Origin: Solobacterium moorei
Lineage (GTDB): Bacteria > Bacillota_I > Bacilli_A > Erysipelotrichales > Erysipelotrichaceae
Length of the DNA: 64,000 nucleotides
Assembly (NCBI RefSeq): GCF_036323475.1
Contig: NZ_AP028934.1
Span: 1,178,001 to 1,242,000, forward strand
Reading direction: 5' to 3'
Part shown: one piece after another, positions 40,922-50,435 of the stretch
How positions within the stretch are numbered: position 1 is the first letter of the stretch
Layout of the letters: each line of letters opens with the position of its first letter
Notes under the pieces: model-generated
What the model was told of the DNA's origin: nothing
What the model saw: only the letters and a program-made list of their open reading frames with translations
The model's database searches: none
Position numbers and translations under genes: made by a program

Positions 40922-41674
40922 CTACTGAATCATAAATTCAATGCATATTGTTTCAGAAGTATTATCGGGAACATTATGGAATATAGAGTAAATATAGATA
41001 TCCCCATATGTTTTAAAACCTTCTTTTTGAATTCGATTCTCTAATTGCTGTAACTCATCTAAACTGATTAATTCATTGGTTTTAACTTCTTTGATAATTC
41101 TATAAAACTTATGTTTTTCGATTACTTGATAATTACCTTTTATATTCTTGTTTTGTTTATTCAGTAAGAGTCCAGTGTCTTGCGGATAATTTTGTTTGTT
41201 TTTATTATTTTCTTGAATTCTAAATACCAATCTAGATACTAGAATTTTGTGTTGATTCTTTGAAGTATTTGATTTTTGAACATCAAAGGTTGGGTAAAAA
41301 TATTGAGTAGGGTGAATGCCTATATCATAATCAATACCATGATTATATTTTTGTAGTAAATGGTATGTATCTGATGCTAAACGATATTTTGTTTCTGCCC
41401 AAAACGCTTCTTCTTTCAAATATTCTAATTGAGTATTAAATGATTCGATTGCTAAAGGTATATTACCATTTTTTAATATTTTTCCAATTTCTGTGAGTGT
41501 TATTCCTAGACTACTATAAAACTTTATAGTTACTAGAATATGAATATCACCCATACTGTAATCACGATAATGATTTTCAGGGTTTCTACTCGGATGTAAC
41601 AATCCTTTCTTTTCGTAAAAGCGAATCATATCTTTTGAAATTCCTGTAGCAATACTAGCTTCTTGTATATTCAT
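40922..41674 (-). CDS. MerR-family transcriptional regulator
   Basis: 250 residues. The N-terminal MerR helix-turn-helix (NIQEASIATGISKDMIRFYEKKG) and wing (NHYRDYSMGDIHILVTIKFY) span about residues 1-75. A helix links to a C-terminal beta-rich domain (ICIEFMIQ at the end) that could be a GyrI-like ligand-binding fold. No metal-binding Cys cluster typical of MerR or CueR is seen, so an organic ligand is more likely. AGGAGAAAT precedes the ATG. It is divergent from the reductase gene at 41777, whose promoter has a MerR-type operator. Confidence 0.88.
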   Translation of the reverse strand: MNIQEASIATGISKDMIRFYEKKGLLHPSRNPENHYRDYSMGDIHILVTIKFYSSLGITLTEIGKILKNGNIPLAIESFNTQLEYLKEEAFWAETKYRLASDTYHLLQKYNHGIDYDIGIHPTQYFYPTFDVQKSNTSKNQHKILVSRLVFRIQENNKNKQNYPQDTGLLLNKQNKNIKGNYQVIEKHKFYRIIKEVKTNELISLDELQQLENRIQKEGFKTYGDIYIYSIFHNVPDNTSETICIEFMIQ

Positions 41675-41716: not shown

Positions 41717-41747
41717 TTGACCTTAGAATAGTTCTAATGTTTATAAT
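41717..41747 (+). promoter_or_regulatory. MerR-type promoter with 19-bp spacer and palindromic operator
   Basis: The -35 TTGACC (41717-41722) and -10 TATAAT (41742-41747) are 19 bases apart, the over-long spacing that MerR-family activators correct by twisting DNA. The spacer contains the perfect dyad TTAGAA-TAG-TTCTAA (41723-41737). It reads toward the FMN/FAD lipoprotein gene. Confidence 0.88.
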
Positions 41748-41776
41748 CAAAATATCAAATAAAGGGAGGGAAAACA

Positions 41777-43963
41777 ATGAATAGAATATTAAAAAGTATT
41801 CTATGCGCAACTATTACAGCATCTTTAATTGGCTGTAATAGTTCCAAAGAAGCAAAGTACAAGGCAGGTACATATTCTGCTGAAGCATCAGGACATAATC
41901 CAGGGGTTAAAGTAACAACAGAATTTAGTGCAAATGAATTAAAGAAAGTTACGGTTGATGCATCAAATGAAACAGAATCAATTGGCGGTAAAGCAGCTAG
42001 TGAACTAGAAAAGCAATTACTAAAAAATCAATCTGCTGAAATTGATGGAGTGAGTGGAGCTACTGAAACATCAAATGCTGTTAAAAATGCATTTAAAGAT
42101 ATCTTGTCTCAAGCCCAAACAAAGCCTGAAACCAAAGAAATGAAAGCTTTAAAAGATGGTCAATATACAGAGACTGTTGCTAGCTTTGGGGTATCCGGTA
42201 TGATGACGGGCGTTGTTACAATAAAGGATAACAAGATTACAGACATTGAAATTACAGAAGAGCATGACTCTGAAACAGCACAATGGTTTAATGTTGCAAA
42301 AGAAAAATTAATTCCTCGTATTCTAGAAGCACAGTCAGTTGGTATTGATTCTATTACTGGTGCCACAACATCTTCAGGTGCTATCAAAAACATCGTTTCT
42401 CGTGCAATTGAATCTGCTGGTGGTGATGTAAGTGATTGGTCCAAGGCTTCTGAAAAGAAGACGGATGTAAAAAAACTAGATGGATACGACGTGATTGTAG
42501 TTGGTCTTGGTGGATCTGGTGTTTTATCCTATGCATCAGCGGCAAAATCAGGTGCGAAAGTATTTGGTATCGAAGCTGCTGGTGAAATTGGTGGAAATTC
42601 TGCATCTGTATATGGCCCTATGGCACTAAATTCAAAGAACTTAAAAGATAAGTACAACAATGGTCAAGATTATATAAATGCTGATGATGTATATAATACT
42701 TGGATTAAGTATGTTGGTACAGAAGAGAAGGAGGATGTCATTAAGAAAGCTGTATATAACTCAGGAAATGCTCTTGATTATTATATGGATAACTTTGATT
42801 TCAGTTTTGATGGAATGAATGGATTGTTAGGTTCATTTGTTGTTCCAGAATGGACGAAAGAATGGACTGTATATACTGCTGATAATAAGAAATGGTATAA
42901 ATTTGGACCTGACCATACATATCAGTTTAAACATGCGTTAGATAAGGCAAAACAGATGAATGAAAAGAATGACTATATGCTAGAACTATCTGCTAAGGAA
43001 TTAATTACAGATAAAGATGGAAAAGTCGTTGGTGTAAAGGCAATTTCCTATGATGGTACAACATATGAAATCTATGGAAAAACTGTTATTTTAGCTACAG
43101 GTGGGTTCTTAGGCAATGATGAAATGATGAAGGAAGTATATGGTAGTTCAGTCCATAAGATTGGCGATACAGTGAATGACGGAACTGGTATTAAGATGGG
43201 TCAATCTGTTGGCGGTGCTACATATGCGTTAGGTACATTGCCAATGGTACATATCTCACAAGTTCCAAATATTATTCGTGATGATTCATTAACAGCTGAT
43301 CAAAAGGCGATTCTTTCTGCTCTTGCAATTACTCAAGATGCAAAACAAGTAAATGAGAAGGGTGAGCTTTTGTCGAATCTTGATGAATCTGGTACAGAAA
43401 ATAAGGAACTAACTGTTGGTGTTGTGTTTGCACCGGGATTCCATTATTACAATGCGTATACGCAAGAACAAATTGATGCAATCAAAAATAAAGGATTATC
43501 TGAAGCAACGTCTAAAGTAAGTGTGTTTGGTTTAGACCAAGGTGGTAAGGTTCCTGCTGCGAATACACCAATTACAGATTTGGATAAGATTATTGATGCT
43601 GCTATAGCGACAAATAATGCATTTAAGGGTACGGCTAAAGAACTTGCTGAAAAACTAAACATGGATGAAGACGTTTTAGCTAAGACTTTAGGTAGTGATA
43701 AAGATACTTATTATCTATTTGAATGCGCAGGATATTCATATGGTACTGTTGGCTCATTGGATGTTGATGTGAATATGAATGTTCTAACTAAGGATGGTAA
43801 GCCAATCACTAATTTATTTGCGGTAGGACAAGATTCTGAAGGTGTTGGAAATAAATCTGGTGCAGCATATTCACCGTGGGGTGGTCAGGCACAGTCTTGG
43901 ACATTTGTATCTGGTCAAATTGCTGGTGAGCAAGCGGCTAAGGTTGCTAATGAAACAAAATAG
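41777..43963 (+). CDS. FMN- and FAD-dependent fumarate reductase-like lipoprotein
   Basis: 728 residues. The lipoprotein signal (ATITASLIGC) anchors it outside the membrane. Two tandem FMN-binding domains follow, each with the site of covalent FMN attachment: DGVSGATETS near 92 and DSITGATTSS near 193. A FAD_binding_2/flavocytochrome c domain begins YDVIVVGLGGSGVLSYASAA near 235 and ends with SAYSPWGGQAQSW-type residues. The family includes extracellular reductases of fumarate, urocanate, cinnamates and similar acceptors fed by flavin-based electron transfer; the substrate here is unknown. GGGAGGGAAAACA precedes the ATG. Regulated by the divergent MerR protein, by inference. Confidence 0.88.
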   Translation: MNRILKSILCATITASLIGCNSSKEAKYKAGTYSAEASGHNPGVKVTTEFSANELKKVTVDASNETESIGGKAASELEKQLLKNQSAEIDGVSGATETSNAVKNAFKDILSQAQTKPETKEMKALKDGQYTETVASFGVSGMMTGVVTIKDNKITDIEITEEHDSETAQWFNVAKEKLIPRILEAQSVGIDSITGATTSSGAIKNIVSRAIESAGGDVSDWSKASEKKTDVKKLDGYDVIVVGLGGSGVLSYASAAKSGAKVFGIEAAGEIGGNSASVYGPMALNSKNLKDKYNNGQDYINADDVYNTWIKYVGTEEKEDVIKKAVYNSGNALDYYMDNFDFSFDGMNGLLGSFVVPEWTKEWTVYTADNKKWYKFGPDHTYQFKHALDKAKQMNEKNDYMLELSAKELITDKDGKVVGVKAISYDGTTYEIYGKTVILATGGFLGNDEMMKEVYGSSVHKIGDTVNDGTGIKMGQSVGGATYALGTLPMVHISQVPNIIRDDSLTADQKAILSALAITQDAKQVNEKGELLSNLDESGTENKELTVGVVFAPGFHYYNAYTQEQIDAIKNKGLSEATSKVSVFGLDQGGKVPAANTPITDLDKIIDAAIATNNAFKGTAKELAEKLNMDEDVLAKTLGSDKDTYYLFECAGYSYGTVGSLDVDVNMNVLTKDGKPITNLFAVGQDSEGVGNKSGAAYSPWGGQAQSWTFVSGQIAGEQAAKVANETK

Positions 43964-43973
43964 ATATTCACAG

Positions 43974-44005
43974 AAAAAGAACTTCACAAGCATGAAGTTC
44001 TTTTT
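43974..44005 (+). terminator. Intrinsic terminator after the reductase gene
   Basis: AAAAAGAACTTCA pairs with TGAAGTTCTTTTT, a 13-bp stem around a 6-base loop that includes the T-run. Confidence 0.85.
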
Positions 44006-44008
44006 CAG

Positions 44009-48499: not shown

Positions 48500-50435
48500 G
48501 TGTGACGGGCATGTCGCAAACCTAACTGGTGAAAGTCCAGTCGTAGGTAGTTACCGCCAAGCGTAGCGAACCACAAGCCGTAAGCCGTGAGGCTTTGGGT
48601 GAAGGAAGTGGTGTAGCGATTCTTTCGAGGTTACGAACAGAAATCTGATATAAGGCTAAATGGAGGGTGAGATTGCTCTACAAATCGAAGCCCAAAAGGT
48701 AAACGTAAAACCAAAACAGTAAATCAGGAACTTGTGAAAGAAGAGAGAAAGGTATGTGACTTACCCCGTGAGGTCTTGTGGACGATGAATCCTAGACGTT
48801 TTCAAACAACTATAGTACCATCGGTCGGAAAAGGTCTATCACAAGAAGTCAGCTGAGCCCATAGTAGGTATACACCAGTACTGAAGGGGTTAATGTTTGT
48901 ATAGTGCAAATCACTATATGTAAGAAAATGAATACTCTGGAATTGAGATATCACCTAGAACCATAGAACGTAACTATGGATGGTGAAAAGGCAAGAAGAG
49001 AATTTCATTATTTGTGCAATAGAAGGAGGAGCAGCCATGGAATTAATGGACAAGATTCTAAGTCAAAAGAACTTACAAGAGGCGATGAAAAGAGTCAAGA
49101 GTAATAAAGGTGCATCGGGCATTGACAAGATGTCTGTGGAAGAAATTGACGAATACTTCAGTAAACATATAGAAGAAATCAAAACTTCGATATGGGAAAA
49201 GAAATACAGACCTCGGGCAGTAAAAAGAGTCTATATCCCAAAACCAAATGGAAAGAAAAGACCATTGGGGATACCCGTTGTAGTGGATAGAGTAATCCAA
49301 CAAGCAGTGGCACAAGTGTTTAGTGAACTCTATGACGAGTGCTTTAGTGAGCATAGTTACGGATTCAGACCAAACAGAAGTGCCCACCAAGCGATGGAGG
49401 AAGTACTCTTCTACCTAAACGAAGGGTGTGAATGGGTAATAGACCTAGATATTGAAAAGTACTTTGACACAGTGAATCATGATAAGTTGATATCCATACT
49501 TAGAGAGAAAGTAAAAGATGATGTAACGCTACATCTCGTAAGGTCCTTTTTGAGGGCTGGAATCATGGAAGATGGAATCATCCACAGAAATGAAGAAGGA
49601 GTTCCACAAGGAGGTCCGCTCAGTCCAATATTATCCAATATCTACCTAGATAGGTTTGATAAGGAACTGGAAAGCAGAGGGCTAAGATTCGTAAGATACG
49701 CAGATGACTGTAATATCCTCGTGAAGAGTGAGATGTCAGCCAACAGAGTCATGAAGTCTGTATCAAGTTGGCTAGAAAGAAAACTATTTCTAAAGGTCAA
49801 CATGACAAAAACAAAAGTAGTAAGACCTAGCAATAGTTCGTTTCTTGGCTTCACGTTCTGGAAAAACAAAGATGGATGGAAAAGTATGCCTACATACGAT
49901 AGGAAACAAAAACTATGTAAGAAAATAAAAGAAGTGCTATGCCGTAAAAAGGCAAGTGCACTTCCTTTATCGACTGTATTCACCCAAGTAAACCAAATCG
50001 TGAGAGGATGGATAAACTACTTCAGGATTGGCTCGATGAAGACCTTCTTAAAAGAATTTGGAGAATGGTTGCGACACAAGATACGTGTGATAATTCTAAA
50101 ACAATGGAAGAAACCAAAACGTATCTATACCAACCTACAAAGTCTAAATCGGATACTCAAGGTCAATATCTCTGATGAAAGAATCTACAGTACAGCCAAT
50201 ACTAGACTAGGTCTATATCGACAGGCAAATGGAAACACAATAAAATTCTTATTGAGTCCAAAGGTACTATCGATGAAAAGCAAAGACAGACCGGGATTAA
50301 TCAATCCACTAGAATATTATCAATCTAAGTAAAGGTAGAAACAATACAAATGTAGCGCCGTATACGAGACCCGTATGTACGGTGCAATGAGAGGGTCGAG
50401 GAATATCTGGATAAGATATTCTCACTCTACTCTAT
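48500..50435 (+). mobile_element. Group II intron with intron-encoded reverse transcriptase
   Basis: The 5' end GTGTGACGGGC matches the GTGYG consensus. Domain V lies at about 50353-50386, with the AGC triad (50354-50356) and the paired GCGCCGTA/TACGGTGC stem. Domain VI ends CTCTACTCTAT, with the likely branch-point A at 50429, seven bases before the 3' end at 50435. The ~540 bases from 48500 to the ORF at 49037 are domains I-III and hold no other gene. It lies three bases past a terminator T-run, the target type preferred by class C introns. Confidence 0.88.
49037..50332 (+). CDS. ltrA: Group II intron reverse transcriptase/maturase
   Basis: 431 residues. The reverse transcriptase domain has YIPKPNGKKRPLGIP, SYGFRPNRSAHQAM, the EGVPQGGPLSPILSN motif and the active-site YADD (RYADDCNILV) near 221. 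A maturase (X) domain with WINYFRIGSM follows. No C-terminal HNH endonuclease domain is present, so insertion probably uses replication-fork or terminator-associated targets. The ATG at 49037 follows AAGGAGGAGCAGCC. Intact, so the intron may be mobile and self-splicing. Confidence 0.93.
   Translation: MELMDKILSQKNLQEAMKRVKSNKGASGIDKMSVEEIDEYFSKHIEEIKTSIWEKKYRPRAVKRVYIPKPNGKKRPLGIPVVVDRVIQQAVAQVFSELYDECFSEHSYGFRPNRSAHQAMEEVLFYLNEGCEWVIDLDIEKYFDTVNHDKLISILREKVKDDVTLHLVRSFLRAGIMEDGIIHRNEEGVPQGGPLSPILSNIYLDRFDKELESRGLRFVRYADDCNILVKSEMSANRVMKSVSSWLERKLFLKVNMTKTKVVRPSNSSFLGFTFWKNKDGWKSMPTYDRKQKLCKKIKEVLCRKKASALPLSTVFTQVNQIVRGWINYFRIGSMKTFLKEFGEWLRHKIRVIILKQWKKPKRIYTNLQSLNRILKVNISDERIYSTANTRLGLYRQANGNTIKFLLSPKVLSMKSKDRPGLINPLEYYQSK

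Follow-up and report, generated by a model that had tools for sequence, protein, structure and literature searches.

A predicted MerR-type promoter-operator element upstream of the gene of a probable flavinylated extracellular reductase in Solobacterium moorei

Comparative analysis of a 64-kb stretch of the Solobacterium moorei genome (referred to here as the window, whose numbering is used unless stated otherwise) identifies the element at positions 41717–41747 as a predicted MerR-type promoter-operator, with the gene of an extracellular flavin reductase as its target. The parts named in the original prediction are all present, with TTGACC and TATAAT boxes on either side of a 19-bp spacer, the initial 15 bases of which are the perfect dyad TTAGAA-TAG-TTCTAA. 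The features of the locus are listed in Table 1. The explanation that we put forward is that a BmrR-like MerR protein sits on the dyad, that the promoter is switched by a ligand, and that the product is a lipoprotein reductase with a likely neutral acceptor; taken as a whole, we consider that it has a good chance of being correct.

Table 1. Features of the predicted regulatory unit (window coordinates)
Feature	Position	Strand	Basis
MerR-family regulator, 250 aa, divergent from the reductase	40922–41674	-	Pfam MerR_1; AlphaFold model
-35 box TTGACC	41717–41722	+	Sequence; TTKAC in 23/23 related sites
Perfect dyad TTAGAA-TAG-TTCTAA (TTAGAATAGTTCTAA), predicted MerR operator	41723–41737	+	Sequence; covariation with MerR residue 15
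-10 box TATAAT (19-bp spacing to the -35 box)	41742–41747	+	Sequence
Expected transcription start (about 41754)	41753–41755	+	Position of the -10 box only
Ribosome-binding site GGGAGGG	41764–41770	+	Sequence reading
Extracellular reductase, a 728-aa lipoprotein that combines two FMN_bind domains with a flavocytochrome-c-type FAD domain	41777–43963	+	Sequence and domain matches
Lipobox-like LIGC	41825–41836	+	Sequence
First FMN attachment motif SGAT	42053–42064	+	Sequence; motif as given in PMC8238504
Second FMN attachment motif TGAT	42356–42367	+	Sequence
Active-site motif YSPWG (Y698 to G702), region of UrdA Arg560	43868–43882	+	Aligned with Y-x-x-x-G of ketosteroid dehydrogenase
Intrinsic-terminator-like hairpin 3′ of the reductase	43974–44006	+	Sequence reading

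This arrangement is rare in both the window and the genome. When both strands of the window were scanned for -35 and -10 boxes that each agree at five or more of six positions, separated by a 19-bp spacer and enclosing a dyad paired at 6/6 positions, the single match was the element at 41717–41747 (a promoter scan restricted to 16–18-bp spacers could not report it). Sixty dinucleotide shuffles of the window yielded the strict pattern once in total, so that the bare pattern is rare but not overwhelming on its own. That one match among 60 shuffled windows is what speaks for a chance dyad between promoter-like boxes in an AT-rich intergenic region, a reading that is contradicted by the conservation, linkage and covariation described below and that we find scarcely credible. 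A search of the 2.6-Mb genome for further copies of the dyad, proposed along with the original prediction, found the exact sequence once, together with 11 other sites with two mismatches; the reversed control of the dyad yields 45 matches in all, and these near-matches are therefore attributable to chance. The extended promoter-operator pattern also occurs once in the genome, even when three mismatches are allowed (the control gave none), and with this single site a wider regulon in the same genome was rejected.

The protein encoded divergently from the reductase has the organization of a MerR-family regulator. A winged HTH of MerR type occupies residues 1–69 (Pfam MerR_1, 51.5 bits against a cut-off of 21.6) and is followed in the AlphaFold model (mean pLDDT 89.7) by a long coiled-coil helix at residues 72–111 and a BmrR/GyrI-like C-terminal domain, and the dyad lies within a 19-bp spacer, in line with the 19–20 bp of the target promoters of this family. 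In a Foldseek search with the model, ranks 1–8 are BmrR entries, with 3iao being the best full-length structural match (E value 3.8e-12), and EcmrR, BrlR and GyrI (1jyh) are also listed; alignment to BmrR with VIA-align gave a Z score of 12.6 over 240 residues with an rmsd of 5.7. A profile of 23 full-length proteins also reaches BmrR, at 6e-7 across positions 3–247. A GyrI-like C-terminal fold is thus indicated by a confident model and its structural matches; a Pfam search of this part gave no GyrI domain match, and a profile of the C-terminal part alone gave just weak, unrelated matches in the PDB.

The protein has one cysteine, C244, and so lacks the usual metal-binding cysteines, as the original prediction had noted. 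Metal sensing of the MerR, CueR, ZntR or CadR type was considered and rejected, given the single cysteine and scores with the NCBIfam metal-sensor models that are far below their cut-offs. The BmrR-like model, with its GyrI-type effector domain, and the presence of only one cysteine make an organic effector likely, and the earlier suggestion of an organic-molecule sensor is consistent with a model that is of BmrR/GyrI type and not of metal-sensor type. The effector is probably the reductase's own substrate or a close relative of it.

Comparison of the window with 22 further loci (L076–L097; 23 MerR relatives in all) establishes that the operator is conserved, that it is linked to the reductase, and that protein and DNA have matched specificities. 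First, the 19-bp-spaced promoter element is found with 23/23 of the MerR relatives, and the dyad is perfect (6/6) in 16 of them. Where the two genes are divergent, 15 of 16 intergenic regions contain the 19-bp element with at least 5/6 of the dyad, whereas shuffling these regions gave an expectation of 0.015; the exception is L084, in which the dyad is 3/6.

Second, such a reductase adjoins the MerR gene at 19 of the 23 loci. A full-length MerR relative is encoded in 10 of 195 family genomes, and in all 10 its neighbor has the same make-up as the window reductase (nine divergent and one in tandem). A tblastn scan of the named genomes for MerR relatives identified 44 loci, and a reductase is adjacent at 17 of the 21 that are matched beyond the HTH versus one of the 23 matched in the HTH only (Fisher 1.3e-7). 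This grouping is by tblastn coverage; L092, which is matched at residues 1–127 only, is counted among the 21, and the one HTH-only locus with a reductase and a site is L096. The two sets of genomes are not independent, because nine of the 10 family genomes recur among the named ones. The site itself is present in nine of the 10 family genomes with a full-length relative and in none of the 185 others, with one per genome (Fisher 1e-14). Among the 19 genomes reached via the named loci, a single site occurs in each of the 14 that encode a relative, and no site in the five that have other MerR proteins. Since the degenerate site pattern was derived from the known sites and matches these by construction, the informative part is the occurrence of one site per genome and the absence elsewhere. 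The sequence distances among the MerR proteins and among the reductases are correlated (r 0.81 over 17 pairs, a value that no permutation out of 5000 reached; the correlation omits L096, which the trees include, and the reductase tree omits L084), to which common descent of the host species may partly contribute. The same switch recurs beside reductases of this kind in other bacteria of the gut and the rumen. Similar 19-bp dyad elements, on the strand reading into merR, are present at three of the 22 HTH-only control loci (L101, L110 and L112), so elements of this general type are not unique to this MerR branch.

Third, the operator and the protein covary. Operator positions 10 and 18 together make up the fourth pair of the dyad arms. 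This pair is G:C in 18 of the 23 sites and T:A in five, and residue 15 of the MerR protein is Asp in exactly the 18 with G:C and Gln in exactly the five with T:A, such that residue 15 gives the correct operator pair in 23/23. This residue is the second of the second HTH helix (residues 14–22 in the model), and none of the other residues of the 250-aa protein fits a variable operator position as well. Gln is known to read A, and Asp the C of a G:C pair. The tree requires two changes, with a single origin in 17% of bootstrap trees. Because residue 15 predicts the pair at every site, the window MerR protein very probably binds the dyad at 41723–41737. The conserved sites, the linkage of site and reductase, and this covariation support the proposal of a MerR-type operator controlling the reductase.

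The dyad could instead be a repressor or autoregulation site that serves merR only, with the reductase promoter being constitutive or located elsewhere. The intergenic region is 69–84 bp in several of the relatives, and any merR promoter must there overlap the operator. Such a role is nevertheless very unlikely, as the 19-bp spacing is kept in every one of the 23 relatives, and at L088 and L093/L145, where merR shares the strand of the reductase and lies downstream of it, the site is still found upstream of the reductase gene, some 30 bases from its start codon. We therefore favor an operator that acts on the reductase promoter.

The gene into which this promoter reads encodes, in agreement with the original prediction, a lipoprotein in which two FMN_bind domains are joined to a flavocytochrome c domain: the lipobox-like LIGC and the SGAT and TGAT motifs are present, and a further domain matches PF00890 (FAD_binding_2). 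The sequence features expected of a flavinylated extracellular reductase are found here, namely a lipobox-like motif, FMN_bind domains with [S/T]GA[S/T], PF00890, and ApbE in the genome. Its fold neighbors include UrdA, fumarate reductase, ketosteroid dehydrogenases and cyclohexanone dehydrogenase. The transcript is probably monocistronic, because the gene is followed by the terminator-like hairpin (which the scan of the window did not list) and then by a gene on the opposite strand that we take to be purA-like.

A different possibility is that the regulator, in the manner of BmrR, responds to drugs or stress in general, and that the reductase detoxifies electrophilic or membrane-active compounds and has no role in respiration. 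This would accord with the structural matches to BmrR, EcmrR and BrlR, and with the pairing of several distinct reductase subclades with the same sensor branch. However, there is no exporter or detoxification gene in the unit, which has the reductase alone before the terminator-like hairpin, and the two covalent-FMN domains of each enzyme point, if not decisively, to an electron transfer chain; we regard a detoxifying role as unlikely, and prefer a sensor dedicated to an enzyme of extracellular electron transfer.

The nature of the acceptor is where our reading departs from the original prediction, in which an unsaturated acid was suggested as the ligand. In UrdA, Arg560 and Arg411 hold the substrate carboxylate, Arg411 is also a proposed proton donor, and both are residues that were mutated (PMC7921117). 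The window reductase has neither of these fumarate/urocanate reductase arginines: the NRLGG of UrdA is replaced by SPWGG, and R411 is aligned with Asn. A profile alignment of 17 reductases has the same outcome for the Arg560 position. The Arg560-type motif is absent from the window reductase, from 17 MerR-linked relatives, and from two reductases with no adjacent merR (L160 and L161), and a pattern search of these same proteins for the RRD/TRD proton-donor motif found none.

What occupies this region is a Tyr/Gly motif. Tyr698 and Gly703 are common to the window protein and the 16 MerR-linked relatives in the 17-reductase alignment, which was made without L084 (truncated reductase) and without L096 (a shorter Tyr-containing motif, and no Arg). 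In a profile alignment, Y698 and G702–G703 align to AYPGAGG of the ketosteroid dehydrogenase 7p18, the Tyr of which was equated with Tyr487 by spacing. The Tyr487/Gly491 pair drives keto-enol tautomerisation in ketosteroid dehydrogenase (PMC5348764), and by alignment the window reductase has this pair. The motif argument rests on sequence alignment because the active site is poorly modelled in the reductase structure (pLDDT <50 at 686–704).

The absence of the carboxylate arginine, the presence of a Tyr/Gly ketone-binding motif, and the ketone dehydrogenases among the structural neighbors lead us to expect a neutral acceptor, and a carbonyl or phenolic compound appears more likely than an unsaturated acid; this is the weakest step of the argument. 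Recognition of an unsaturated acid (fumarate, urocanate, cinnamate or similar) by both sensor and reductase would be in keeping with the grouping of the reductase fold with urocanate and fumarate reductases. Moreover, of the 11 PF00890 proteins compared in this genome (the window gene and L132–L141), six have the Arg (acid) motif and five do not, and for these six paralogues acid reduction is likely. With the carboxylate Arg replaced, no Arg at the R411 position, a Tyr/Gly motif as in ketosteroid dehydrogenase, and neither Arg560-type nor RRD/TRD motifs in the compared relatives, an unsaturated acid is unlikely here, and this part of the original prediction is not supported.

We propose that a dimer of the BmrR-like MerR protein would occupy the dyad inside the over-long 19-bp spacer. 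Without ligand, RNA polymerase would be on the promoter but unable to use it; binding of an organic effector to the GyrI-like C-terminal domain would distort the DNA and realign the -35 and -10 boxes, and the single downstream gene would then be transcribed from about 41754. In the product, the two ApbE-type covalent FMN domains would take electrons from a donor in the membrane and hand them to the FAD site, and the FAD site would reduce the extracellular acceptor. In this scheme we infer the mode of activation, the effector, the substrate and the electron route.

Each component is of a known kind, in promoter architecture, sensor fold and enzyme architecture alike. BmrR, the multidrug-efflux activator of Bacillus subtilis, shares the HTH, the coiled coil and the C-terminal effector domain with the window MerR protein, and its promoter has an over-long spacer; however, the two proteins are only 14–17% identical, the window protein has no Pfam GyrI match, and its target is a secreted reductase and not an exporter. 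KstD (4c3x, 7p18) and cyclohexanone dehydrogenase (8am3) share the reductase fold, and the Tyr-x-x-x-Gly motif aligns to the ketone-binding Tyr487/Gly491, but these are dehydrogenases without FMN domains. The Shewanella UrdA and the flavocytochrome c fumarate reductases have the FAD domain and fold in common with the window reductase and are also extracytosolic, but the window reductase lacks counterparts of Arg560 and Arg411 and has tandem FMN_bind domains; in enzymes of the UrdA/fumarate-reductase type, FMN_bind or cytochrome domains bring the electrons (PMC8238504). Meheust et al. (2021) describe flavinylated fumarate-reductase-like enzymes that have the same FMN_bind and PF00890 architecture and for the most part no known substrate; the word MerR is absent from the main text of that paper (PMC8238504).

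The best NCBIfam match of the window reductase is VprA, the vinylphenol reductase of Lactiplantibacillus. VprA was rejected as its family home, the score with NF053717 being 98.2 bits and far below the cut-off of 600, and a search for a true VprA in 395 genomes of the class found none (control genomes gave no match either). Dedicated LysR-type regulators beside flavin reductases include VprR, encoded next to VprA, and HcrR (PMC10295242). The VprA/VprR pair and the window locus are thus alike in having a dedicated regulator beside a flavin reductase, but VprR is of LysR type whereas the window regulator is a MerR protein. Among the open-licence papers searched, we found none on a MerR protein controlling a flavinylated reductase.

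We tentatively suggest, as a generalization about which we have more doubt than confidence, that these loci represent an unnamed BmrR-like MerR branch dedicated to Tyr-type extracellular flavin reductases, in which each sensor would induce its own reductase on a neutral carbonyl or phenol acceptor from the diet or the host; the branch would span Erysipelotrichaceae, Lachnospiraceae and other Clostridia, with the switch in Oribacterium being rewired to a small terminator-ended RNA. Few flavin reductases of gut bacteria have a known acceptor, although a single genome of this type can encode around 12 of them. Where one sensor and one operator serve one reductase gene, they would offer a direct route to the substrate, as the inducer of the promoter is a candidate acceptor. 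Compounds from the diet or the host could be screened with a reporter that carries the 31-bp element, and the active-site comparison favors neutral enones, quinones and vinyl phenols over acids for such a screen.

A point against the pairing comes from the Oribacterium-group loci (L080–L082), where merR and the site are present but no reductase lies next to them. What follows the MerR promoter here is a conserved sequence of about 75–80 bases (L080:4844–4923 on the minus strand, and the matching stretches of L081 and L082), which has unconserved flanks and terminates in a strong hairpin, with CCCCCUAA as its loop, and a U run; the hairpin in L082 contains one compensatory pair change. The stretch is present in three of 17 genomes of the genus, and an Rfam search of L080–L082 gave no match. 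It may be a MerR-controlled small RNA, and we regard it as a candidate. One of these three genomes (G556) also encodes a close reductase of 63% identity (L160), which has neither merR nor the operator beside it.

Some aspects of the S. moorei genome provide additional context. ApbE is encoded beside an Rnf operon (genome coordinates G000:C1:826981–833500; L142 and L144), in which one protein has two FMN_bind domains and another has one more, and we take these to be RnfD-like and RnfG-like, respectively. A multi-flavinylated RnfG has been proposed as a second electron path to extracytosolic acceptors (Meheust et al., PMC8238504), and the operon, with its extra FMN_bind domains, is perhaps the electron source of the secreted reductases. 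Among the PF00890 paralogues, L132 (at 992.7 kb) shares the Tyr motif of the window protein but has no MerR site. Finally, the translated reading frames near the locus include a 450-aa group II intron-type reverse transcriptase ORF at 48980–50332 on the plus strand.
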